Assembly: GCA_014084085.1 (NCBI GenBank)
Contig: NPFB01000159.1
Span: 1-27,315, forward strand
Direction of reading: 5' to 3'
DNA: 27,315 nucleotides
Origin: Hondaea fermentalgiana
Lineage: Eukaryota > Sar > Bigyra > Thraustochytrida > Thraustochytriidae
The notes under the pieces are model-generated. The model saw nothing but the letters and a program-made list of their open reading frames with translations. It ran no database searches and was not told where the DNA came from. The translations under genes and the position numbers were made by a program. Positions 4,415 to 27,010 of this stretch are shown piece after piece (position 1 is the first letter of the stretch; each line of letters opens with the position of its first letter).

Positions 4415-5590
4415 ATGGCCGACGTGTACGACATGCTGGCGACCATCCCCGAGGGCACGGAGCTGCACGGGAGCTTCGACCCGGCCCTCGTCGCGGCAAG
4501 CATCTGCGTGTCCATTTGCGGAGCATGGGCCGGTGTGAACATGATGGAGTCCTTTCGGACGGAGAAAAAGGAGATCACTAGGCAAGCCATGCTCCTCATG
4601 TTCGGCTTCCTCATCGGCGGCGTCGGTATTTGGGCCATGCATTTCGTGGGCATGAACGCCTTTCAACTCGAGTTCGAGGTCTCTGGTGTCGTGTACACCG
4701 TCCCCGTCAGGTTTAACGTGGCCATCACGACCGTCTCCTTTCTCTGCGCAGCTCTCTTTCTCTACGTGGGCGCCTACATCGCCTCCACGGACGTCTTCTT
4801 TGGCGCAAGTACCGAGGAGGCGCTCACCGCACTGCAGGCCATGATCGAACTCAAGGAGCTCATGCGCGTGGGAAAGCGCATCAAATTCATCGCTCTCTTC
4901 AAGCACCCATGGCGTCTCATCGCCGGAGGCATCATCGCAGGCACCGGAGTCTGCATCATGCATTTCGAGGGAATGACTGCGATCGATCAGAATGGCTTTG
5001 AAATTAAGTGGAAGCCCGGTATCGTCGTTGCCGCTTGCTTCATCGCGGCGACCGTCGCCTCCGTGGGCTTCTGGATTGTCTTTCGCTTCCTCCAGTGGCG
5101 CCCCGACTCCGAGATCTCGCGTCTCATTGGCGCCATCATCATCGCCCTCGCAGTCTGCAGCATGCACTATACCGGTATGTTGGCCGCCACCTATGTCGCA
5201 ACGGGAGAAAGCGGCGAGCCTTCCGGCGTGCTTTCCAAGGACGTTCTCCTGGTGGGCCTTCTCGTCGCTGCTGCCCTCGTCGTTCTTGGCTTTTCCGGTA
5301 TCGCGATTCATGCACGGAAGAGCATTACCGTCTATCGCGACGAGATCACGGAGGACATGATCCGAATGATTGAGAAGCAGGTCAATCGCTCGAGCAACTA
5401 CGAGGATCTGCTTTACAACCTCAACAAGCATGTCATCAAGGCTCTCCGGGTCCGCACGACCAAGAGCACCAACCGTACGAATAAGACTGGCGAGTACACG
5501 AATGAGCTGACCGTGGGCCAAAGCGAGCCAGGCTCATCTGTCGACCCTCTCAGCTCACAGTTTGCTCAGAGCAACTCTCGCGTTGCCTAA
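4415..5590 (+). CDS. MHYT-domain seven-helix integral membrane protein
   Basis: 391 residues, probably a membrane sensor. Three copies of the MHYT hallmark are visible at the ends of helices: MHFVGM (75-80), MHFEGM (182-187) and MHYTGM (250-255). About seven hydrophobic helices can be drawn (roughly 24-43, 58-78, 100-123, 166-186, 201-224, 235-253, 275-297). This is the family plan, in which conserved His/Met are proposed to hold copper and sense O2, CO or NO. The last 95 residues are a hydrophilic cytoplasmic-type tail. No GGDEF, EAL or kinase domain is attached, unlike most bacterial members. The start at 4415 has AAG before ATG and G after, a good eukaryotic context. No intron is needed in the coding part. 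The ligand is unknown; the domain assignment is firm. Confidence 0.92.
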   Translation: MADVYDMLATIPEGTELHGSFDPALVAASICVSICGAWAGVNMMESFRTEKKEITRQAMLLMFGFLIGGVGIWAMHFVGMNAFQLEFEVSGVVYTVPVRFNVAITTVSFLCAALFLYVGAYIASTDVFFGASTEEALTALQAMIELKELMRVGKRIKFIALFKHPWRLIAGGIIAGTGVCIMHFEGMTAIDQNGFEIKWKPGIVVAACFIAATVASVGFWIVFRFLQWRPDSEISRLIGAIIIALAVCSMHYTGMLAATYVATGESGEPSGVLSKDVLLVGLLVAAALVVLGFSGIAIHARKSITVYRDEITEDMIRMIEKQVNRSSNYEDLLYNLNKHVIKALRVRTTKSTNRTNKTGEYTNELTVGQSEPGSSVDPLSSQFAQSNSRVA

Positions 5591-6285: not shown

Positions 6286-9200
6286 ATGGGCGGCGGGCGG
6301 CGGGCGGGCAGCGGCGGCGGCGTGGCCGGCGACGGCGGAGTAGCGCTGGACGACGTGCTGCCCCCGGGCGAGCCGTTCTGCGTGGTATGCTTTGGGCCCG
6401 GGCGCGGCGGCGCCGCGGCGCCCATGGAACGACGTGAACGCGTACTTGCGTGCGTGTCTTGCGGCCACGGCATGCACGCGCGCTGCATGGGGCTCCCCGA
6501 AGACACCAAGGCGCCCTTTTGCTGCGACTCGTGCACAGACTTCACCGGCGGAGGCGAAAAGCCGCGACGCGTCGCCAAGGTCAAGCTCCAGCGCGATTGC
6601 CCTCTCTGCACGAACGGCCTGCAGGGCGGCTTCCTCGCCACGACGGCTGGACCCGACGTGTGGGCGCACGCGAGCTGCGTCTCGGCCAACGACTACGTTT
6701 CCTTCGATGCCCAGTCGCGTAGAGCCGATATTTCCCAGATCCCCGGCGAAAGGAGCGCACTGACCTGCGAGCTCTGTGGCAAAGCTGGCTCTCCCGGTTG
6801 TCTGCCCTGCCGCGGAGGCTGCGGGTCCTCCGCCTTTCATGCGACCTGCGCGCTCGTCCTCGGTGTGAAAAGCGGCTACGCGGTCGATCGCTGCCCCTCC
6901 TGCTCACAGGCGGCCGCGGTGATTCGGCATCGCTTGCCCTTTCTTACCGCTCTCGACAGTTGTGGAGACATCATTCCGGACATTGATAGAGAATCCCTCA
7001 AAGCCGTCATCAACGAGGGCCGCTGCGATCGTACCCCTTTTACTGCCGAGCTCGTCCGCCTCAAGGCCATCGAGCGTCCTGCTGACAAGGCCTTTGCCAC
7101 GGTTATGCGGGACCTCGCCGGCTTCTCAGGCCCGCGCACGCGCCAAGAAAAAATCGCCTTGGCAGCAGAGTATCAGCGCATTACCAAGATGGGCAAGGCT
7201 CCCGCCACCGTTTTAAAGTTCTTTCGGAATATTATCCCAGAGGCTGAGGAGAGCGACATTCTCGTTGAGGTCACCTCTGTCAGTCTGCAGAGCCCCGAGC
7301 CTTCCTCGCGTCGGTCTCGGCCGCGCTTTCCAGGCTTTCGAGACTCCCCCATGCTATATTTTGATGTCGAACGCTTCGCCAACGAGGCCAACATCATCTT
7401 CGTACTTTCACCCGGCATCGAGCGCGCCACCGTCCAGCTCATGGTGCGCACCGCGGCACGCGCCATCGAGGAACTCCTCCTTTCCCGCGTCTTTCGTGTT
7501 GGGGTCGCCGAACGCGCCCGGGCCGCGCTCGCGAGCGGCGCCGATGGCCTCGAGGAGGCCATCGGCTCGAGCACTCCCGGCAAACGAGGGTCCTCTTCGA
7601 GCAAAAAACGACGCAAAAGCTCCTCTGCAGCTGCGAGCGCCGCCAAAAACGGCGCCGCTACCTCCGCCGCTTCCGCAAATGGGCCCGAGGGAAAATCTGA
7701 GCAGGATGAGGATGATGTGAGCCTCTTTAAACTTGAAGGGCACGAAGTCCGCATGACGAATCAAATTGCGTATAGTGTGTTTAGTCGCGTGGGACGCGAA
7801 CTCGAGCACAACGCGACCGTCGAACCGTACCTGAACGGCAAGTGGAACAAGGCACCTTACCCAAGACGCCCATATGAAGAGATCAAGGAATACGCGCCCA
7901 CACCGGGTCTTAGTGCGCGCGAACAAAAGGAGGTCCTCGATATTCTTAAAACCTCCAAGCGCGCAGAGTGCGATCAGTCTGACCTCTGCGCGCAGATCGT
8001 GCCCTTTAATCTCGCGGAGAACCGTTTTGAAACGCCTGCGCGCTGCAAGTCGCGCCGTGTGGGCTGCCATCGCACGGCCGTAGGGTCCAAGCGGCCGCTT
8101 CGCGTTGGCCAGCAAGTCCAGGTTGCAGACATGTGGGGTCTCGACTGCTACACGCGCCGCAACGTGCAAACAGTCTTGCGCATGGCGGCGGGGCTCGAGA
8201 CCGAGTTGCTTCAGCGCAGCTTTGTTCAGCGCATCCTTCTCCCCGTTGTCGACGCCCAACCGGCTCACCGGGCCCATAACTTAGTGCACGCCATGCGCTC
8301 CATTCTCGGTGTCGTTGGTCGACCTCCTGTCGCCTCGGACGCCCACGAGGCCGCAGCGCAGCCACGCCTTCCGGTCGCGCTCGCCGACATCCCGACCTTT
8401 GAGTCTGACTTCACACCCGACGACCGACCCGAGGTCGCCAGCAAGGTCGCGCAGATTATTGCCGCGGCGACGGCATCCTATCCGGAACTTTCCAAGGACC
8501 GTGTGCGTGCCGGCGCAGTATGTCTCCTCTTTGCTGTGCGCAATTGGGGTCTCAATGCGTTTCGCGTGCACCCCAAGGGCGTCGGCGTGCAGTGCACCGA
8601 GCGCAACGGTCTGCGCTCCGGAACCTTTGTCACCGAATATCTGGGAGAGCTTTTTGCGCCGTGGCGCTGGTTTGAGAAACAGGACGCCATCAAGAATGCC
8701 CAGAAAAAGTGCCGCTTTAAGCCTATTCTGCCCGACTTTTACAACATCATGATGGAGCGTCACGAGGATGACGAGCAGGGCTACGACGTTGCTTACATCG
8801 ATCCCATTGTGCGCGGTAACTTTGCGTCCCGTCTGAGTCATAGTTGCGAACCAAACTGTGCGACCGTGGTGATGGTTGTCAATGGCCGCTACGTCGTCAC
8901 GGTGTATACTTTGCGCGAAATCGGTTTTGGTGAAGAGCTCACCTTTGACTATTCTTCCGTGACGGAGGATGAAAGCGAATTCAAGGCCGCGACTTGTCTC
9001 TGCGGCTCCTTGGGTTGCCGCGGTTCCTTTCTCTACTACGCTGGTGTGGGTGCCTTTGCTCAGGTCCTTGCTGATGAGCACACCTTCTTGCATCGGAACG
9101 CGCTCGTCTACGCCGCTTGTGCGAACCCTGTCCTCAACCAGGACGACAAAGCGCGGCTGGTGCGCGCCGGCATCAAAAAGGCTGCTCTTCGGGATAGTCC

Positions 9201-11316
9201 CACGTGGCTCGTCAAGTGGACCTCGCTGGTGCTTGCCTACGCTGAGCGTGAGCGCGACGAACTTGCGCACCGTCTCTGTCTGAGCACGTTCCGCGACCGT
9301 CTGACGTACACGGGGGAACAGGCGCGCTTGCAAGCTGCAGGCGTGCTTGAAAACCGAGTGCAAAACGTTGTCATTACCCTCAACAAGCTTCGGCATTTCT
9401 TCACGGCCGCGCGAACCTCGGGGACGGCTGCGCGAGACTCGGTTGGTATTTCCAGCAAACCCCTTTCCAAAATCCCGTCTCCTGTACGGCCTGTAACTCC
9501 GGCGGAGCTCGTGGATATTCTTTGGAGCTCGGAAGGCTCGCACGCCCGTGTAGCTCTGCAGGGTTTTCTCAGCTTGCCGCTCGTAAAAGACCCGGCATAC
9601 GCTACGCATGTGTCCCGTGCGCGCCAGCTGCTCAAGATGTCCGAAAGCAACGCCGCACAAACATATCCGCAAGTGCAAGAGTACCTCGCGGAAATCCGCA
9701 ACATTCTCTGGTCTTCGTCCGCGTGCCAGTGCGTCGCTGCTGGCGATCTACTGACTTGGATTCTTCACACCAAGCACTTTTTTACGGCCGTCACATATCC
9801 CGGCATGCGGTCGACTGCGATTGTCATTCGCAACGTAGACATTGGCCGCGATGGCAGCGTTGCTGCGTCGACGCAAACGACCAAGAAGGGTGCGGCTTCT
9901 TCGAGCAAGGCCAAGGCTGCCACTTCTCCTGGTGACGAAGGTGCAGCGAGCGCGTCTGCTTCTGGAGCATCGGCGTCTCCGACGCCAGCGCCAGCACCAG
10001 CGAAAGGGCGCAAGTCGCGTGCAGTGAAAAAGGAGGCGGCGCAGCAGGGCCAGGGCCGTGGTAAACGGGTAAAGCGTCCTACTGCTGCCGAGGCAGCCGC
10101 CGAAGCAGCCGCAGATGCATCTGGCCTTGTTGGAGGTATCGAGCAAGCGCCTGCAACACCTTTTCTTCAAAACCCAGGCGCGCAGGCGACATCTCTGCAG
10201 GGGCAGGCGCCGCCGCCTTATCCTTCCTTTACTCCTGCGATGTCAGATCTTAAACATGGTTTCGAGGCATCTCAGCGTACGCCAGGCCCGCTGCAGCTGC
10301 CATACTGGTATGGCGTTGACAATGCCGGAGGGGTGGTTCTTTCTGCTGCCACGCCTGAGAATTTCACGTGCATTTCCTTTGAGCAAGATCCTGACAAACC
10401 TTTTCTTCGGGGCCTCCGGCTCGCGTCCGAGCCTCCGACAGAGTCCCCTCGCGCCCAAAAGTTTTTCATCCTGACGATTCCCATGCCCGGTTGCGTGCCC
10501 GTCTACATGTATCGCCCCATGCGAGCCGGGCCTACGCCGGGAGGAAAGCTTGAACCCGTTCGTGAGGATCCGAGTCTTGCGCTTGTGACCACGCGATTGG
10601 TCCCGGACGCGCCAACGAGACCTCTGCCGATCGAGGGCATTGTGTGGGACAACATTGGGCTCATTTATGCTTTCGACGTGCAGCTTCCAGGCACCGATCG
10701 GATGTGCGCTCTCGACCACGAAGGCCGCGTCCTGACTCTGTTTGCCTTTTCTGAAATGACCTTTTGCAACCGAGTACGCTTTCTGCGGCCAGGCGAGACC
10801 TTTCACAACTCGGCAAGCTCGCCGCAGACCGCATCCATTCCACGCGCAGTTGATCCGCTCAAGGTAGTCTTCGATGAGGAGAAAAAGTACCAGAGCGGGT
10901 ACGTGTGGGGTCAAATGTCGGGCTGGTTCAAGCAAACAGTGGCATCCCCTGACGCGAGTCTCTCGGCAGAGCGACGAGGAACCTTGTCGCTTCCCGACAT
11001 GCAAAGCTGTTTCACAGCCACTTCGTACAAAGATCGCCAGGCCATTGTGGACCGCGTTTCCAAACAGCCTGAAGCCATGTGGCCTACAGGCTCGCACTGG
11101 TCTTTCAAGAACAAGCGCAAGCTGTATGGTTCCCCATGGCTTGATGACGTCATTGATCCTTCGTCGCGAAGTACCGAGGCTGCGCTGCAGGAAATGGATT
11201 TCCACATGCAGCACAACAGTGCACCCCCTCCCCCGATGCTGAACAACGATGCAGCGATGGCCCTCAGCGCTCTTCAGAACGCGCCAACGAGCAGCTATCC
11301 TCTCAGTTTTCCGTAA
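6286..11316 (+). CDS. PHD-ePHD-SET histone H3K4 methyltransferase, ATXR3/SDG2 type
   Basis: 1,676 residues in one exon, predicted nuclear. A C4HC3 PHD finger uses C32, C35, C56, C59, H64, C67, C80, C83. An extended PHD (Cys/His-rich, about 105-209) follows. Basic NLS-like patches lie at 440-444 (KKRRK) and near 1246-1265. The SET domain (about 760-900) has SHSCEPNC (851-858) and GEELTFDY (882-889), then post-SET cysteines 904, 906 and 911. The SET insert with PPWRWFEKQD-like text (here APWRWFEKQD) and the long C-terminal module (LVKWT, WGQM..W, TLSLPDM, WSFKNK, GSPWLDD) match Arabidopsis ATXR3/SDG2, the main H3K4 trimethylase there, as I remember it. The plant protein lacks PHD fingers to my knowledge, so the N-terminal readers are notable. 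ATG has G at -3 and +4. H3K4 specificity is inferred by homology. Confidence 0.9.
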   Translation: MGGGRRAGSGGGVAGDGGVALDDVLPPGEPFCVVCFGPGRGGAAAPMERRERVLACVSCGHGMHARCMGLPEDTKAPFCCDSCTDFTGGGEKPRRVAKVKLQRDCPLCTNGLQGGFLATTAGPDVWAHASCVSANDYVSFDAQSRRADISQIPGERSALTCELCGKAGSPGCLPCRGGCGSSAFHATCALVLGVKSGYAVDRCPSCSQAAAVIRHRLPFLTALDSCGDIIPDIDRESLKAVINEGRCDRTPFTAELVRLKAIERPADKAFATVMRDLAGFSGPRTRQEKIALAAEYQRITKMGKAPATVLKFFRNIIPEAEESDILVEVTSVSLQSPEPSSRRSRPRFPGFRDSPMLYFDVERFANEANIIFVLSPGIERATVQLMVRTAARAIEELLLSRVFRVGVAERARAALASGADGLEEAIGSSTPGKRGSSSSKKRRKSSSAAASAAKNGAATSAASANGPEGKSEQDEDDVSLFKLEGHEVRMTNQIAYSVFSRVGRELEHNATVEPYLNGKWNKAPYPRRPYEEIKEYAPTPGLSAREQKEVLDILKTSKRAECDQSDLCAQIVPFNLAENRFETPARCKSRRVGCHRTAVGSKRPLRVGQQVQVADMWGLDCYTRRNVQTVLRMAAGLETELLQRSFVQRILLPVVDAQPAHRAHNLVHAMRSILGVVGRPPVASDAHEAAAQPRLPVALADIPTFESDFTPDDRPEVASKVAQIIAAATASYPELSKDRVRAGAVCLLFAVRNWGLNAFRVHPKGVGVQCTERNGLRSGTFVTEYLGELFAPWRWFEKQDAIKNAQKKCRFKPILPDFYNIMMERHEDDEQGYDVAYIDPIVRGNFASRLSHSCEPNCATVVMVVNGRYVVTVYTLREIGFGEELTFDYSSVTEDESEFKAATCLCGSLGCRGSFLYYAGVGAFAQVLADEHTFLHRNALVYAACANPVLNQDDKARLVRAGIKKAALRDSPTWLVKWTSLVLAYAERERDELAHRLCLSTFRDRLTYTGEQARLQAAGVLENRVQNVVITLNKLRHFFTAARTSGTAARDSVGISSKPLSKIPSPVRPVTPAELVDILWSSEGSHARVALQGFLSLPLVKDPAYATHVSRARQLLKMSESNAAQTYPQVQEYLAEIRNILWSSSACQCVAAGDLLTWILHTKHFFTAVTYPGMRSTAIVIRNVDIGRDGSVAASTQTTKKGAASSSKAKAATSPGDEGAASASASGASASPTPAPAPAKGRKSRAVKKEAAQQGQGRGKRVKRPTAAEAAAEAAADASGLVGGIEQAPATPFLQNPGAQATSLQGQAPPPYPSFTPAMSDLKHGFEASQRTPGPLQLPYWYGVDNAGGVVLSAATPENFTCISFEQDPDKPFLRGLRLASEPPTESPRAQKFFILTIPMPGCVPVYMYRPMRAGPTPGGKLEPVREDPSLALVTTRLVPDAPTRPLPIEGIVWDNIGLIYAFDVQLPGTDRMCALDHEGRVLTLFAFSEMTFCNRVRFLRPGETFHNSASSPQTASIPRAVDPLKVVFDEEKKYQSGYVWGQMSGWFKQTVASPDASLSAERRGTLSLPDMQSCFTATSYKDRQAIVDRVSKQPEAMWPTGSHWSFKNKRKLYGSPWLDDVIDPSSRSTEAALQEMDFHMQHNSAPPPPMLNNDAAMALSALQNAPTSSYPLSFP

Positions 11317-11751: not shown

Positions 11752-13470
11752 TCAAAACTTGCAGAGCGTGTCAAAAATGACAATATCCAGGGCCTGGCAA
11801 ATCGCAGGGCAATCGCTGACGAGCGTCTTGGATGGCTTGAGCACTTCGTTCTCGAGCTGGTCTAATAAACCATTCTCCCTTGCTGCTTCACAGATTGCCG
11901 CGATTGCGGGCTTGATTTGCGAAGAGGTTGTGAGCGAAGGGGCCTCGAGAAAGCCCTCTGCAGCAACGTAAAGAGCAAGAAGCTCTTGAGCGCGAGACGT
12001 CAGCGTCTCGTCATTGACGTCCGCCTCGAAGAGGGCGCGGAGGCTCTGCGCATGAGCAAGGCCCGTGCCAAGGTTTTCTTCGTCCATTGGGTCAATTCCT
12101 AAACGACGCGCAATGGTGCCAGCAGACTCTGCGGAAGACGCTTCCTTGAGACGGACCTGAAGACGCCAGGCAAGCTCTCTCAAAGCGGGCGCCTGATAAG
12201 CGCGAATACCTGGGAGACGTGCCCCTACGGCGCGAATGGAACGCAAGCCTTGCATATCGATGGTAGTGTCGACTTGGCCAGCAATTCTGTCACGAACTTG
12301 CTCAGACTCTGTCGAGTCATCCTGATGAAGGAGGGCCAGGGTGGTCACGGATCCACCACTCTGGAGCGCGCCAAGCCGCTCGAGATACCGGTGGGGCTGA
12401 AAGAGTGGCGTGACGCGAGCGCCTGATCGTGCGCCCTCCACTTCTGCAAGGGCGGCACCCACAGGGCCGAGACTGTCGATAATGACGAGGACGTTCTCGC
12501 CACGAGCGGCGCGATCCTCCGCCATGGCACAAAGAGCCGCCGGACCGAGGGCGCGCAAGGCCCACGGATCGCTGGCGGGGGCGGCAACGATGGCCGTGAA
12601 AGCGAGCGCGCCCATAGCCTCGAGATCGAGATACGTCTTGCGGATGCCACTCTGGTCGAGACCGGCAGAGAGCCAAATGGCGAAATCGACTTCGCGATCC
12701 GACTCGGCGAGCTTGGACTGGCGAGACAAGAGGTTCATTGCTACGTATCGCATGCCTGCTGGATTCTTTCCCATGAGCGCCGTGCGCGTACCGCGGCCAA
12801 GCGGATAAAGAGCATCAAGCGTGAGGATGCCGGTCCAGAGCTGTTCTCGGACGATGGAACGCTCAGGTAGCGTAGGCGCGCCCTGTTTAGAGTCCATGGT
12901 CATTTTCAATGTGAGCGGTAGGGGCTCTTGCGTCCAATAATCAACTCCGATGGGTGTAGAAACCTGGCCAGCATCGAGAGCAGCCGCGCGAAGTTTTCCT
13001 TCGTCGCCTGGCAGCAGCCGCGCGAAGGCGCCCGAGCGGACCTGGGCTGCGCTTGAGGAGCCAAGAGCCGCGATTTTGGTCACGCGGTTCTCGAGGCGGA
13101 GAACAAAGCCGCGAAGGCCTTGGTCGCCCAGTTGAACGACATCGTTGGGGCGCGCGTCGGCGAGCCCAACCACAGACACCACGCCTCTGCTGACGTCAAC
13201 CACCTCGCCCTCGTCGCCCAGAAACTCGTGGGCGGTCCCTAGAATCTGCTCTTCAAGCGCGAGCTCGCTCTCGTCGAGCCTCGGGGCTTGTCGGTTCCGG
13301 TCACGCGACGAAGGCGGCGCGCCCGGAGCCGCCCTCGTCGTCGACGCTGACGCCGAGGAAAGCGCCGCCGCCGCCGGCCGCCGCCATGCGCTCGACGGCA
13401 TCCATGGCTGCGGCGTCCGGGCCCCGGCCACGGCCCGCAGGCGCGCCAGTCGCGGCGCCGCGGCGAGCAT
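11752..13470 (-). CDS. Degenerate F1-ATPase alpha-subunit-like protein (P-loop lost), mitochondrial
   Basis: 572 residues, close to the length of alpha-subunit precursors. The order of segments is that of F1-alpha: an Ala/Arg-rich presequence (1-45), an N-terminal beta-barrel (about 87-140, GEVVDVSRGVVSVVGL), then TGILTLDALYPLGRG (213-227) where alpha has TGLKAVDALVPIGRG. The Walker A box GDRQTGKT is replaced by GKNPAGMR (234-241): the Lys becomes Met and the Thr becomes Arg. AIVAAPASDP (293-302) matches the conserved IVAATASDP. VLVIIDSL (327-334) stands where Walker B LIIYDDL is, with the second Asp changed to Ser. A helical C-terminal domain follows. The start at 13470 is chosen because the protein gains an import signal there and A is at -3. 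The frame stays open to 14325, but that part is low-complexity promoter. It probably binds no nucleotide; its role may be structural. An ordinary alpha subunit should exist elsewhere. Confidence 0.8.
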   Translation of the reverse strand: MLAAAPRLARLRAVAGARTPQPWMPSSAWRRPAAAALSSASASTTRAAPGAPPSSRDRNRQAPRLDESELALEEQILGTAHEFLGDEGEVVDVSRGVVSVVGLADARPNDVVQLGDQGLRGFVLRLENRVTKIAALGSSSAAQVRSGAFARLLPGDEGKLRAAALDAGQVSTPIGVDYWTQEPLPLTLKMTMDSKQGAPTLPERSIVREQLWTGILTLDALYPLGRGTRTALMGKNPAGMRYVAMNLLSRQSKLAESDREVDFAIWLSAGLDQSGIRKTYLDLEAMGALAFTAIVAAPASDPWALRALGPAALCAMAEDRAARGENVLVIIDSLGPVGAALAEVEGARSGARVTPLFQPHRYLERLGALQSGGSVTTLALLHQDDSTESEQVRDRIAGQVDTTIDMQGLRSIRAVGARLPGIRAYQAPALRELAWRLQVRLKEASSAESAGTIARRLGIDPMDEENLGTGLAHAQSLRALFEADVNDETLTSRAQELLALYVAAEGFLEAPSLTTSSQIKPAIAAICEAARENGLLDQLENEVLKPSKTLVSDCPAICQALDIVIFDTLCKF

Positions 13471-15501: not shown

Positions 15502-15885
15502 CTACTTGTAGGTGGCCATCTCTGTGCGGCCGCCAAAGTCGGCGGTGAGGTCTGGGAGGTCGCGCTTGGGGAAAGGCGCCTGCGTCTCGGGCTGCTTGAC
15601 CACCTTGACGAAGGTGAAGGTGCCCGCAAGGAAAGCAATGCCACCGAGCCACATGAGGAAACCGGTGAAGCGGTCCACGTTGGGGGCGTCAAAGTCGATC
15701 GTGGGCTCGGGCGCGACACCGTCATCCCAGACGAGGTCGTTGTGCTCGTGCAGCTGCTCCTTGGGCGCGGGCAGGCGCATGAACGAGGGTGGCGGGGCGC
15801 CGCCACCGCCGCCGCGGGTCACAGCTGCGCTCCGCGCACGGGCGACGGCGCCGCCGCGGCGGGCCACGATGCGGGCGGCCTGCAT
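15502..15885 (-). CDS. NDUFB8: Mitochondrial complex I subunit NDUFB8 (ASHI) type
   Basis: 127 residues, an accessory subunit of the membrane arm of NADH:ubiquinone oxidoreductase in the inner mitochondrial membrane. Residues 1-30 form an Arg/Ala/Gly-rich presequence without acidic residues. The family signature follows: LPAPKEQLHEHNDLVWDDG (38-56) and APEPTIDFDAP (58-68), the same text as in plant, fungal and animal NDUFB8/ASHI. One membrane helix (about 75-95) and a short tail complete it. The ATG at 15885 is preceded by AAAC, giving A at -3; the open frame extends further upstream only through non-ATG codons. The length matches plant homologues. It is divergent from mitochondrial EF-Tu with 634 bases between the start codons, so the two may be co-regulated. 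Confidence 0.85.
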   Translation of the reverse strand: MQAARIVARRGGAVARARSAAVTRGGGGGAPPPSFMRLPAPKEQLHEHNDLVWDDGVAPEPTIDFDAPNVDRFTGFLMWLGGIAFLAGTFTFVKVVKQPETQAPFPKRDLPDLTADFGGRTEMATYK

Positions 15886-16519
15886 GTTTCCTGCTCCTTG
15901 CTCTCGCTCTCCCGGCTCTGCTCCGCGCGCACGCGCAAGGACACGCTCGCTCGCTCGCACGACCTCTCGCGTGTCGAGCTGCGCAGCCTTGTCGAACTAC
16001 GCGCAGCCCCTGCAGGCCGCGCAAGTGGGTTATAGCCCCCTCGCCAAGTGCGCTATGCGCCGCGCCACCACTGCCACTGCCGCCATTCTCCACTTGCGCG
16101 CCGCCCTTGCGTCCGTTCGCGGGCACCGCCACGGAGGCTGTGTTATCCTAGGCTGTGCAGCCACCGTTTCGCCGGCAGGGGACAAACGCGTTATATCCTC
16201 TTAAACGAAGGCGAGGATATCCGGGGGCGACTCGCGCCTTTCGGACGCGGAGAAAGGGGCGCGCGAGGCGCCTTAAATACCGAGAAAGTAAAGCCGTGGA
16301 CAAGCGTGAAAAGAGGCCAATGTTAAGGTGGGAGAAACCGCGATGATTTATTGGCCGCGCGCAGCAGGCAGTCCTGCTGCGAGCGGAGCGGACGAGGCGC
16401 GGAGTCAGTCCCGAGCGCATACGTGCGTGCGTGCGAGCGAGCGAGGCAGCTTGCTTGCTTCTTGCGGTGTCAGAGATCTATAGACTGATCGCGTGACCAA
16501 CCGGTCGCGGAGAGTAAAG
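15886..16519. promoter_or_regulatory. Divergent promoter region, NDUFB8 (-) and mitochondrial EF-Tu (+)
   Basis: 634 bases hold both promoters. A TATA-like TTAAATA lies at 16273-16279, about 240 bases before the EF-Tu start, flanked by GC-rich DNA. (GCGA)n/(GTGC)n runs (about 16418-16444) lie close to the EF-Tu start. The plus-strand frame running through this region (15512-16204) is antisense to NDUFB8 and not credible. Confidence 0.6.
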
Positions 16520-17794
16520 ATGCTGCGCAACCTCGTCGCCAAGGCCCCCTGGGCCGCCGCCGTGCGGCCCCGCGTGGGCGCCGCCGGTTCCCGTGGCATG
16601 GCCGACTTCGTCCGTGCCCTCCCTCACTGCAACGTCGGCACCATTGGCCACGTCGATCATGGCAAGACCACCCTGACGGCCGCCATCACCAAGGTGCTGT
16701 CGGATATGAACCCGAACTCGGCCACCTTTGTGGACTACGCTTCCATTGACAAGGCCCCCGAGGAGCGGGCCCGTGGTATCACCATCTCCACGGCCCACGT
16801 CGAGTACGAGACTGAGAACCGCCACTACTCGCACGTCGACTGCCCCGGCCACGCTGATTATGTCAAGAACATGATCACTGGTGCCGCCACCATGGATGGC
16901 GGCATCCTTGTCGTTTCGGCCTCGGATGGCCCTATGCCCCAGACTCGCGAGCATTTGCTTCTCAGCAAGCAGGTCGGCGTCCCCGCCCTCGTTGTCTTCC
17001 TCAACAAGGTCGACCAGGTCGATGACGAGGAGCTCCTCGAGATTGTCGAGATGGAGATCCGCGAGCTCCTCGACAACCACGACTTCCCTGGTGATGATAC
17101 CCCCATTGTGCGCGGCTCTGCCCTCGCTGCCGTTGAGGGCCGCGACGACGCGATTGGCAAGGACGCTGTCGTTGAGCTCATGAAGAACGTTGACTCCTTC
17201 ATCCCCCAGCCCACCCGTGACCTTGACAAGCCCTTCCTTCTTCCCATCGAGGATACCTTTTCCATCTCTGGCCGTGGTACCGTGGTTACTGGCCGTATCG
17301 AGGCTGGCTGCGTGAACGCTGGTGAGGAGATCGAGGTTGTTGGCGGCAAGCGCGACAAGATCCGCACTACCTGCACCGGTGTCGAGATGCACCGCAAGAC
17401 TCTCGCTCGCGGCGAGGCTGGCGACAACGTCGGCATCCTCCTTCGCGGTGTCAAGCGCGAGGACGTCAGCCGCGGCCAGGTCGTGACCCACCCGGGCAAC
17501 ATCACCCAGAACACCAAGTTTCTCTGCCAGGTCTACGTCCTTACCCAAAAGGAGGGTGGCCGCCACTCACCTTGCTTTGATGGCTACTCTCCCCAGTTCT
17601 TCATCCGCACTGCTGATGTGACTGGCTCCGTCAAGATCGCCGATGATGGCAAGGAGATGATCATGCCCGGTGATGACTGCACCCTCGAGGTCACGCTTCA
17701 GAGCCCGACCCCGATGAACGAGGGTCTTCGCTTCGCCATGCGCGAGGGTGGCCGCACCATCGGCGCCGGCACCATCAGCAAGATTATCGAGTAA
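16520..17794 (+). CDS. TUFM: Mitochondrial translation elongation factor EF-Tu
   Basis: 424 residues; a GTPase delivering aminoacyl-tRNA to the mitochondrial ribosome. Residues 1-27 are an Arg/Ala-rich presequence ([10 protein letters not shown] start, no acidic residues). The G motifs are intact: GHVDHGKT (43-50), RGITI (85-89), DCPGH (107-111), NKVD (162-165), SAL (200-202). The switch I/effector region with PEERARG is present. Domains II and III follow ([11 protein letters not shown], then the [14 protein letters not shown] segment and the closing [12 protein letters not shown]). The ATG at 16520 is preferred over an in-frame ATG at 16493 because it begins the typical presequence and has A at -3. 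Codons strongly favour C in third position, as expected for a highly expressed gene. A 362-codon antisense frame over it is a by-product of this bias. Confidence 0.96.
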
Positions 17795-19838: not shown

Positions 19839-20411
19839 TAGATATCAGCCTAAAGGATAGAGCCTTTTTTTCTCTTCTTTGCTCTCTTTGCCTTTCCCAA
19901 TGTCCTTACTCGACGTCCTCGCACTTGCTTGTCGCTTCGTAGTACAAGTCAAACCCAACGCAGCAGCAAAAAACAAATAAAAAACAAAAGACAGAAAGAA
20001 AGAGATCGATTAGGAAAGTTTGATTGGGACAGTGCTCTGCGTGCGGTGGGCACAAGTAAGTACCTCATAGTAGCAGCAGCAGATGCCATTGACTGCTTCA
20101 ATGATTCCGGTTGCTTGGTATACTACTAGTGACTAGTAGCGACTACTAGTACTACTAGTACAAACTGCATTCAACGGACACAAGCCAAAACAAGTGATCG
20201 ATAATCAATATTTTTTCTTTCATTCCTTCTCTTCCGCGTGCTTGCGAGCTCAAGTAAGAAAAAGGGGCTCGCTTGGACCTCGATCGGCAACAGAGTCGCG
20301 ACTTCTGCTCTCGATACCGCACGCCGCCCCGCTTCAGTCGCTCATGCGAACGAGGAGGGGCGTGCGCAGCTCACGAACTCGCTGCTGCACTTCCCTCCCC
20401 TTTGTACTCTC
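19839..20411. other. Intergenic region upstream of the IQ-motif gene, possible 5' UTR intron
   Basis: 573 bases. After a T-rich 3' UTR come A-rich sequence, a palindromic ACTAGT cluster (20119-20160) and a pyrimidine tract (about 20211-20236). A donor-like CACAA then GTAAGT lies near 20054 and an acceptor-like site in the pyrimidine tract near 20248, so the IQ gene could have an upstream exon. The frame of the IQ protein is open back to a TAA at 20202, but contains no ATG before 20412. Confidence 0.45.
20119..20160. repeat. Palindromic ACTAGT cluster
   Basis: Four ACTAGT hexamers plus overlapping CTAGTA/TACTAG text in about 42 bases. One perfect arm pair is CTACTAGT-G-ACTAGTAG. It could form a small cruciform or hairpin. 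It is non-coding. Confidence 0.8.
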
Positions 20412-22640
20412 ATGGGGCGACCACCTCGTCGAGGAGCACAGTCGTCAGGGCCTCCAAAGGCCAGCCAAAGCCAGCGAGGAGCGCGCAACAATACAGATGA
20501 AGCCAGGATCGCGGAGTTCGGGCGAAAGGCAACATCGCTCGATGATAAAAGCAAGAATGCAGAACAACGCGGTCCATTGCGACTCCTTCCACGCGTAGGC
20601 GCACAAATTGTGAACCGTGCAAGAACGTCCAAAAAGAGGGCTCGCGGTGGACATGGCGCCGACGGCCATGGGACCAAGCAATTGTTCGGCGAGATCCCCC
20701 TGTGTCTCGACAAGGCTACTGCAAAGTACATGCCGTACAGCGCCGTCGCCTTTCCAAAAATTGACAACCAGACTGACACTTCCGTGGACACGATTTGGAT
20801 GGTGGGATTCCTCGATTACGAGAGACGGCGACAAAAAGAGCTTGCTCTTGACGAGCTTACTCATTTTCGCGGACTCCCCGGAGGCCATGTGCCCCCGAGC
20901 GCAGCGGTTCATCTGCGCAAGGCATATAGTAAAGACCGCGCAGCGAATCGAGAGGAAGATGACACCGAAAAGCAAAAACAAAATGCACCTCGACTCGGAG
21001 CACGACATAGAAAGGCACAAAAGGAGCCAGATCGCTTGAAGCTTTCTGATGAAGACGCCATGAAACTCCGACTCTTGGAGGAAAGACTCTCGAAAAAGGG
21101 ACCCAAGCGCCCGTGGGCTATCTACACGGCTGAGAATCGCCGCATTCGCGCTGCGCTGCGCGACAAGAATCCTGGGCGAAGCACCACCAACGTGATGCGG
21201 TCTCGCGCATTTGAGAACATGTTTGAGCTGGAGCGTGAGCACATGCAAGCAGCACTTTGCATTCAACAAAGGTACCGAAGGTATCGCATGCATTTGTACT
21301 GGCAAGAAATCGTCCGTAAGAGTCGCGCAGTCAAAGTAATCCAGCGCTATGCCCGCGGAATGCTTACGCGAACTCTCATACGCGTATGGCTTTTGCGCAA
21401 GACATGGCTGGTCACAGTTGCCCAGGCATGCGTGCGCGGCTACATCTCGCGTCGCCGTACCCGCGAACGAATTGCCGAAATGAACGCGGGCGTCCGCAAG
21501 ATCCAAGTGATCATTCGAGGCTACCTCGGTCGACTTCGCGCCGACGCGCGTCGAAGCGAGCTAGCAGCTTCGAAAATTCAGCGTGTTTGGCGAGGAAGCG
21601 TGGCGCGCGTTCGGTGCGACCGACTTTGGCTTGATCTTCAGGTGACCAAGATTCAGCAGGTTGTGCGTGGTCATCTGGGGCGCATTGAGTTTGCGCGATG
21701 GCAACGAGCTGCACATGCTGGCGCACTTGTCTTGCAGCGCGTATTCAGAGGTCTTCGGGGCAGATGGGAGCGAAATCGACTCTTGTGGGTTCGTGAAACG
21801 GAGCGACAGCGCCAATTTATTCAGGTCCTTCGCGCCGAAGACGACTTTATCTGTGACGAGATCACTGCTCTCGAAACCCGCATGCGGGATATTCTCCAGG
21901 TCGATGCAACTCTTCAGCATGCCGAAAAGCAGTATGAGGACATGCTCCATCTCGTGCGCGAAAAGCAATTTGACTATGAAGCTATGCAGATTGAGCGGGG
22001 ACGCGTGGATCCCCTCGCCATGCGACAAGGCTGGACTGAAGAGCTTGACAAGTATGTTGCAGAGCACCGCTTATGGCTCACCAACGCCAAATTTCAATTC
22101 CTTTTTGTGGGTGCGACCTACTATCGCCAAGTGCTTCTTGACAAAGCAGATCTAGAAAGTCAACTACAACGCCTCCAAAATCGCCGCGAGAGAATCTGTT
22201 CCATTCGTCAAACATTTGTGGAGTCTTTATACCAGCGCGAGTCCTTGGCGCGCTGGGAGCAGCGCCGACGTGATCGTCGGCGCAGAATTGCGGACCAGCG
22301 TCGCCGATGGCACGTCAAGTGGTACACGGACGATGGTAAGATTGACAAGAAGCGCAGGTACGGGTATCCATGGGATCCGTCCGTGTTCGCTGGTCCTGAG
22401 CGGGACACTCTCTGTCTGGGGACAGTCGATCTCGTTCCCACGGCTGGGACAGCGAGCTCTTCGCTGGATCGTGTTATCGAGCAAGTTGCCCTACAAAATG
22501 CACAGAATGAAATTGTGCAGCACGGAGCTTTACTTGCTCCGCTCATGGACGGCATGGAGGCTTTCTCTGACAAGATTGAGCGCCATTTTGAACTCGAACG
22601 ACAATTTGCAGAAATGATGGCAGACGATGAGGAAGACTAG
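20412..22640 (+). CDS. Multi-IQ-motif protein, probable calmodulin-binding, with coiled coil
   Basis: About 742 residues from the first in-frame ATG. Residues 1-280 are basic and probably disordered, apart from a segment with WMVGFLDYERRRQ. From about 279 to 457 come seven IQ-like repeats of the IQxxxRGxxxR type, for example VIQRYARGMLTR, KIQVIIRGYLGR, KIQRVWRGSVAR, KIQQVVRGHLGR, VLQRVFRGLRGR. These are expected to hold calmodulin or related light chains. Downstream is a charged helical region with likely coiled coil (about 465-640), an Arg-rich patch (WEQRRRDRRRR), and an acidic end (MMADDEED). There is no myosin motor or other enzyme domain, so it is more likely a cytoskeletal or ciliary scaffold, which is inference. 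The 20412 start has a weak context (C at -3), and an upstream exon cannot be excluded. Confidence 0.82.
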   Translation: MGRPPRRGAQSSGPPKASQSQRGARNNTDEARIAEFGRKATSLDDKSKNAEQRGPLRLLPRVGAQIVNRARTSKKRARGGHGADGHGTKQLFGEIPLCLDKATAKYMPYSAVAFPKIDNQTDTSVDTIWMVGFLDYERRRQKELALDELTHFRGLPGGHVPPSAAVHLRKAYSKDRAANREEDDTEKQKQNAPRLGARHRKAQKEPDRLKLSDEDAMKLRLLEERLSKKGPKRPWAIYTAENRRIRAALRDKNPGRSTTNVMRSRAFENMFELEREHMQAALCIQQRYRRYRMHLYWQEIVRKSRAVKVIQRYARGMLTRTLIRVWLLRKTWLVTVAQACVRGYISRRRTRERIAEMNAGVRKIQVIIRGYLGRLRADARRSELAASKIQRVWRGSVARVRCDRLWLDLQVTKIQQVVRGHLGRIEFARWQRAAHAGALVLQRVFRGLRGRWERNRLLWVRETERQRQFIQVLRAEDDFICDEITALETRMRDILQVDATLQHAEKQYEDMLHLVREKQFDYEAMQIERGRVDPLAMRQGWTEELDKYVAEHRLWLTNAKFQFLFVGATYYRQVLLDKADLESQLQRLQNRRERICSIRQTFVESLYQRESLARWEQRRRDRRRRIADQRRRWHVKWYTDDGKIDKKRRYGYPWDPSVFAGPERDTLCLGTVDLVPTAGTASSSLDRVIEQVALQNAQNEIVQHGALLAPLMDGMEAFSDKIERHFELERQFAEMMADDEED

Positions 22641-26103: not shown

Positions 26104-27010
26104 TCAAAGCGTTGCAACAACCACAGCCGCGTTGGCAAAGACGCGCTCAGAAGGATCGGGCGAAGACTCACGACTCAATGATCTCAGAGGATTTTCACGC
26201 TCTACAAAGTTGATGTTTGCTCCAAGCGCTTCCAACGCTTTTAAATCGCGCGCCAGATCGTCTGCATGGAAGCTCGTAAAAAGGGCGCGTCGGCCCGATC
26301 CCTTGAGATCCGCAAGGGCTTGTGCCCACCGCTTTGATTCTTTGGGGTGTCCAATGCCACTATTGAAAAAGGCGTAGAGGTCCGGCGAGGGGAGCTCACA
26401 GGTCTCCAACGGCCTCTGCGCGGTTGCAAAGCTGACTTGATTAAGAATGGAAACCTCGCGATCGCGCAAGGCATCGTGCACTGGCGGTCCACTCAGACTC
26501 ACATCTGGGCCAATAAATTGCAGGTTCCACTGTTGCGCTCGAGCGGAGTCTGGCGCGAGCGCAACGAGGTGAGTCCAGTACAGGGCTGGCAGCGACGACT
26601 CGGCGCGCGCACCAACGATGCTAACGCGGATATTGTCATTATTTGATTTTTCAAGGTCACAATGTGCATGGGCATACTTGGCGAGTGTCAAAGGGTACGA
26701 AAGCAATTTTGTAAAGACTGCAACGCCTCCTGACGCGGCGTGCCTTTCGACCCAGCTTTCCAGACCGAGCTCTTGCACGACTGTATCCCAATTTTCGAGA
26801 GGATCCACCTTCGCTTGCTTCGCTTGCTTCGCAGTTGCGGCATCGTCGGAGTTGGCGGAGGAGACGGCCTGTCTCTCTGCCGCCTGCCAAAGCCTTGGCA
26901 CGAGGTGGTCCTCCTCGAGCTCTTTGACAGCGCGTCGGAGCGCGTCGGCAGCGGCTTTACCCTTCGCACGCATCGAATCAAGCTTTGCTCTTTCGTCTTC
27001 TTCTTCTTCT

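Follow-up and report, generated by a model that had tools for sequence, protein, structure and literature searches.

The window analysed here, a 27,315-nucleotide stretch of Hondaea fermentalgiana DNA, is one contig of a 36.0-Mb assembly comprising 238 contigs. Between positions 11752 and 13470, its minus strand carries a gene for a diverged relative of the alpha subunit of F1-ATPase, which we term pseudo-alpha (P0001). This protein is real, conserved and unusual, with an alpha-like domain plan and a P-loop whose loss is shared by an orthologue (P0002). Its function can be proposed conditionally. With a probability of roughly 0.4, pseudo-alpha is an F1 alpha-type paralogue that serves as a low-abundance mimic of alpha and acts as an F1 assembly or quality-control factor.

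The open reading frame (ORF) begins with an ATG at 13470, ends with a TGA at 11752-11754, encodes 572 amino acids and contains no internal stop, in agreement with the coordinates and the undamaged frame given by an earlier reading of the sequence alone (the original prediction). The chosen ATG is only the probable start because the frame remains open further upstream (866 codons). Pseudo-alpha is also listed in a protein database, there on a 33,245-base contig that is longer than the 27,315-base window, which indicates that another version of this contig exists. The features of the gene are as follows.

11752..13470, minus strand: pseudo-alpha gene, 572 codons plus stop
13303..13470, minus strand: residues 1-56, acid-free Arg/Ala-rich N-terminus, a possible presequence
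13240..13257, minus strand: residues 72-77, LEEQIL, aligned with LEDRIA of the genome's own alpha and identical in P0002
12961..13215, minus strand: residues 86-170, alpha-type N-terminal beta-barrel
12136..12834, minus strand: residues 213-445, nucleotide-domain fold (PF00006 at 214-404)
12748..12771, minus strand: residues 234-241, GKNPAGMR at the Walker A site, canonically GDRQTGKT (GNNPRGLR in P0002)
12472..12477, minus strand: residues 332-333, Walker B with the first Asp kept and the second replaced by Ser, likewise in P0002
12388..12441, minus strand: residues 344-361, loop 5-6 residues shorter than in alpha, beta and FliI
12217..12219, minus strand: Arg418, kept in P0002, a few residues from the S.SR position
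11755..12135, minus strand: residues 446-572, helical C-terminal domain, the least conserved part

Family models and the predicted fold both uphold the F1 alpha plan that had been proposed for the protein. The Pfam family PF00006 (ATP-synt_ab) matches residues 214-404 with an E-value of 2e-19, and the best two of 19 matching NCBIfam models are F1 alpha models (E-values of 1.6e-31 and 1.6e-28). The curated cut-offs of these models are 554 and 484 (the latter for TIGR00962), and the scores obtained, 109.5 and 99.7 bits, fall far short of them. A structure prediction reproduces the overall fold and domain order of F1 alpha, with moderate model confidence and an input alignment that contained 13 alphas, and a model made from P0001 and P0002 alone was unusable (predicted local distance difference test score of 41).

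The alignment with the genome's own alpha, which has an intact GDRQTGKT at Walker A, confirms the GKNPAGMR sequence noted earlier and reveals that the Walker A Lys and Thr are both gone. Judged from this sequence loss, the label 'pseudo-ATPase' used in the original prediction fits. The Walker B segment reads IIDSL in pseudo-alpha and FYDDL in the canonical protein. The Ser that had been taken as a second lesion is a true substitution, but it is not damage in itself, since the FliI-type proteins P0004-P0006 also read DSL.

Motifs involved in the ring also differ. The stretch from Walker B to the ER motif has a constant length in 24 of the 26 alpha, beta and FliI proteins compared (the search pattern did not match the other two, L122 and L123), and it is 5-6 residues shorter in pseudo-alpha, where it counts 32. 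The S.SR motif, which we take to be the site of the arginine finger, is absent anywhere in P0001 and P0002 and is present in 25 of the 26 comparison proteins, L123 being the exception. Because of these two differences, the ring contacts of pseudo-alpha look changed. Arg418 is a possible remnant of the arginine finger.

A single orthologue was recovered among 5.8 billion proteins. This protein, P0002 (495 amino acids, source JGI, from a 1,788-base contig), is 54% identical to pseudo-alpha and has the P-loop GNNPRGLR, and the two share the Walker B stretch IDSLGPVGAALAE. Identity between pseudo-alpha and 13 canonical alphas is 22-25%, and P0002 agrees with the genome's own alpha in 110 out of 463 positions (regional counts summed). 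Among 210 columns that are invariant in the 13 canonical alphas, 57 are kept by both members of the pair and 72 hold the same new residue in both. Identity within the pair is highest in the nucleotide domain (58-65%) and is 45-48% elsewhere. Because the 54% identical orthologue has lost its P-loop in the same way, the pair represents a conserved new state rather than decay. This is consistent with the expectations, stated beforehand, that the gene is held under selection and that an orthologue with the same loss would be found.

Further relatives were sought in several collections. Full-length searches and profile searches with the pair (7,996 and 7,995 candidates scored, respectively) returned only P0001 and P0002 among the candidates scored. 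Apart from the pair, a region search with P0002 residues 212-395 (1,846 candidates) recovered just a single F1 alpha and three proteins of the FliI type. No relatives were present in 92 stretches from GTDB contigs searched with six peptides of pseudo-alpha itself, or in viral contigs (two stretches with the P0002 query and 55 with the pair query). The true range of the family may be wider than two members because the contig collections consist of prokaryotes and viruses and the full-length searches scored about 8,000 candidates. A search of open-access titles and abstracts yielded no description of such a protein.

The kinship of the pair was assessed with a tree of 28 proteins. Six bacterial genomes contributed 30 loci, of which a P-loop motif rule classed 17 for inclusion; the other 13 fitted no class and were dropped, leaving FliI with four rows only. 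Identical values were obtained when the tree was repeated with gap letters stripped from the input. The pair is separate from the clade of beta and FliI (support 100/97). Its position immediately outside the alphas is weakly supported (71/90), and its stem, at about 6.5 changes per column, is saturated. Topologies uniting the pair with the genome's own alpha (p = 0.068) or with alphaproteobacterial and mitochondrial alphas (p = 0.106) were not rejected, and in the approximately unbiased test those uniting it with the four FliI rows (p = 0.022) or with beta (p = 0.030) were weakly rejected, on long branches. On this sequence evidence 'alpha paralogue' is the best label, and a duplicated mitochondrial alpha as its source is neither demonstrated nor rejected. 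Alignment A3 contained 15 sequences, including 11 of 80 bacterial loci, and omitted L066 (which contains a stop), L020, L035, L090 and L030.

One segment looks closer to the FliI and type III secretion ATPases. From the Walker B DSL to LERVAPLxGxGS[IV]TAF (the form in P0002, also found in P0004), residues 332-380 (12331-12477, minus strand) resemble FliI over alpha, and the search with P0002 residues 212-395 gave similar scores for one F1 alpha (40 bits) and for FliI-type proteins (39 bits). In contrast, whole-protein FliI models give at most 41 bits compared with 109.5 for F1 alpha. Convergence, ancient origin and a mosaic structure are each possible explanations for a FliI-like stretch in a protein that sides as a whole with alpha.

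Other components of the ATP synthase were located elsewhere in the genome. The canonical alpha, whose existence had been proposed as a check, is a 556-amino-acid protein on contig C100 that is 68-73% identical to bacterial AtpA loci (best 80 of 590), which rules out pseudo-alpha as the only alpha of the genome. Genes for beta (C75), gamma (C14), OSCP (C212), Atp12 (C125) and Atp11 (C99) are also present, as is an IF1-like gene (C173) whose score of 24.2 bits falls slightly short of the cut-off, 25. Pseudo-alpha is therefore ruled out as a substitute for a missing Atp11, Atp12 or IF1. The searches revealed no further gene of the beta or gamma type, and the genome's matches to PF00006 are alpha, beta, pseudo-alpha and one weak match. 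The absences carry limited weight because V-ATPase subunits A and B were also missed in the same genome, though its membrane subunit a is present (L135, C9), suggesting that the assembly is incomplete or that genes are split by introns.

Codon adaptation offers a view of abundance. With the F1 subunits as reference, each left out in turn, values were high for alpha (.77), beta (.75), gamma (.71), OSCP (.63), elongation factor Tu (EF-Tu;.65) and the IF1-like protein (.78, 97 codons). A neighbouring ORF resembling NDUFB8 (.46) and an MHYT protein (.41) were intermediate, and Atp12 (.31), a SET protein (.27), a sterol-reductase-like protein (.26), Atp11 (.24), a kinase (.23), a cytidylyltransferase-like protein (.20), an MSS51-like protein (.19) and an IQ protein (.18) were low. 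Pseudo-alpha scores.26. In windows of 150 codons the ranges are disjoint, with the four F1 subunits at.55-.83 and Atp11, Atp12 and pseudo-alpha at.19-.39. Each F1 contains three alpha subunits, and a protein used in this manner is expected in the high class. A bulk structural role in F1, which was among the original proposals, is accordingly disfavoured, and an assembly-factor-like or regulatory protein is preferred because its codon adaptation matches that of Atp11 and Atp12, unlike the F1 subunits.

Mitochondrial import of pseudo-alpha is plausible. In the presequence suggested earlier, residues 1-56 contain no acidic residues and five of the first 30 residues are Arg or Lys. However, the best 18-residue hydrophobic moment of the N-terminus is 0.29, below the mean of 0.41 for its own shuffles. 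The range for five other presumed mitochondrial proteins of the genome is 0.33-0.58, with two values likewise under 0.41, and a SET and an MHYT protein give 0.31 and 0.25, respectively. It is this low moment, despite the acid-free segment, that keeps import at plausible only.

According to one report, beta and alpha that are still unassembled have their interface surfaces covered by Atp11 and Atp12 (PMC7607909). We propose that an alpha-type paralogue lost its nucleotide site, changed its ring contacts and was retained as a low-abundance mimic of alpha, most likely in the mitochondrial matrix. There, its alpha-like faces would bind an unassembled partner of alpha. This could be beta or Atp12, or else OSCP, for which the LEEQIL-type N-terminus would make the contact. 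Such a protein would act as a placeholder or quality-control factor in F1 assembly alongside Atp11 and Atp12. With no nucleotide site and a changed rotor loop, it could keep hold of beta, or engage OSCP or Atp12, and still not complete a functional ring. Pseudo-alpha would thus be like Atp11 and Atp12 in role and codon-adaptation class, but those chaperones belong to other Pfam families (PF06644 and PF07542) and are separately present in the genome. More tentatively, the pair may represent a novel mitochondrial family of pseudo-F1-alpha proteins. By taking the place of alpha on beta or OSCP, its members would serve as templates or gates for F1 assembly, as chaperones evolved directly from the subunit they imitate.

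Several points weigh against this proposal. The N-terminus is weakly amphipathic, only two family members are known, and Atp11 and Atp12 are both present, leaving no vacant assembly role visible. Codon adaptation is an indirect proxy, and a low value may mark a stage-specific gene. In addition, the adjoining presumed complex I subunit reaches only.46, such that a stoichiometric part can score below the F1 subunits.

A somewhat less probable explanation is that the alpha fold now serves a purpose outside ATP synthase, perhaps that of a scaffold for binding, in which the GxNPxG[ML]R loop forms a new binding site. The saturated stem, the 72 shared replacements at canonical-invariant columns and the fact that no partner is known would all suit this reading, but the retained alpha domain plan and LEEQIL segment are not obviously needed by a free scaffold.

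Slightly less probable again is that pseudo-alpha is an alternative alpha, scarce and built into some F1 hexamers, where the lack of a non-catalytic site would leave the enzyme inhibited by MgADP and provide a genetic brake on ATP hydrolysis. The alpha-like fold and N-terminus are consistent with this possibility. In a study of Bacillus subtilis F1, alpha K175A/T176A (with an R354W probe) is reported to have non-catalytic sites that bind no nucleotide, with wild-type-like initial activity and steady-state activity of 2.7-13% of wild type (PMC4171097). The same study states that the alpha-type B subunit of V/A-type enzymes sits in the ring yet binds no nucleotide, although pseudo-alpha scores only 29.8 and 28.0 bits with two such B-subunit models compared with 109.5 for F1 alpha. 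Against ring membership stand the shortened Walker B-ER stretch and the absence of S.SR, and an IF1-like inhibitor gene is present and strongly codon-adapted.

A true F1 subunit limited to a short life stage, and hence under weak codon selection, is improbable. ATP-synthase subunits can have tissue-specific paralogues: a Drosophila study describes six subunits with two paralogues each, the testis-enriched ones being more substituted (PMC5364652), but pseudo-alpha is only 22-25% identical to canonical alphas and is altered in both its nucleotide site and its ring motifs. Finally, a decaying pseudogene, assembly artefact or contaminant would suit the low codon adaptation but can be dismissed, given the 572-codon open frame, the 54% identical orthologue with the same changes, the eukaryote-type genes on the contig, among them the one for the SDG2-type SET protein, and simulations of random change in which a 495-codon frame never stayed open (0 of 500 runs at each of 0.3, 0.5 and 1 change per site).

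Four genes of the 27-kb contig are possibly mitochondrial: pseudo-alpha, an MSS51 C-terminal domain protein (26104-26973, minus strand, E-value of 2.3e-18), EF-Tu (16493-17794, plus strand, of mitochondrial type by its N-terminal extension and strongly codon-adapted) and a small ORF without a Pfam match (15502-15960, minus strand), which presumably corresponds to the complex I subunit NDUFB8. The plus strand also encodes a 1,676-amino-acid SET-domain protein with an SDG2 C-terminal domain and a PHD-like zinc finger (6286-11316), an 800-amino-acid protein with an IQ calmodulin-binding motif (20238-22640) and a protein with three MHYT repeats (4415-5590), a domain named for bacterial signalling proteins and found here in a eukaryote. 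On other contigs, a 5,708-amino-acid open frame (C161) has several matches to the front of the polyunsaturated fatty acid synthase model PfaA, a part we take to be the ketosynthase, and an 869-amino-acid frame (C154) matches the end of this model, all below its cut-off; such frames would be in keeping with a thraustochytrid.

Among known systems, diverged alpha paralogues with a special role include the gliding and F1-like alpha homologues of Mycoplasma. Pseudo-alpha gives weak hidden Markov model matches to MMOB1660 and MSC_0619 (53.6 and 50 bits), but these are far below the cut-offs of 600 and 520, and no partner beta-like paralogue was found in this genome. F1 alpha itself (AtpA, ATP5F1A; TIGR00962) is among the most conserved proteins, and pseudo-alpha departs from it in identity, Walker A, S.SR, loop length and model score. 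A protein that keeps the fold, loses the nucleotide site, changes the inter-subunit motifs and settles into a new conserved state tests which surfaces of alpha matter beyond catalysis, and bears on how ring ATPases yield non-ATPase helpers. The preservation by selection of a second alpha-like gene beside the normal one suggests that an engine part has been turned into a helper protein. If the assembly role is true, pseudo-alpha would be a case of an F1 subunit giving rise to a factor that assembles F1, and one route by which a lineage may add control over the build-up of its ATP synthase.
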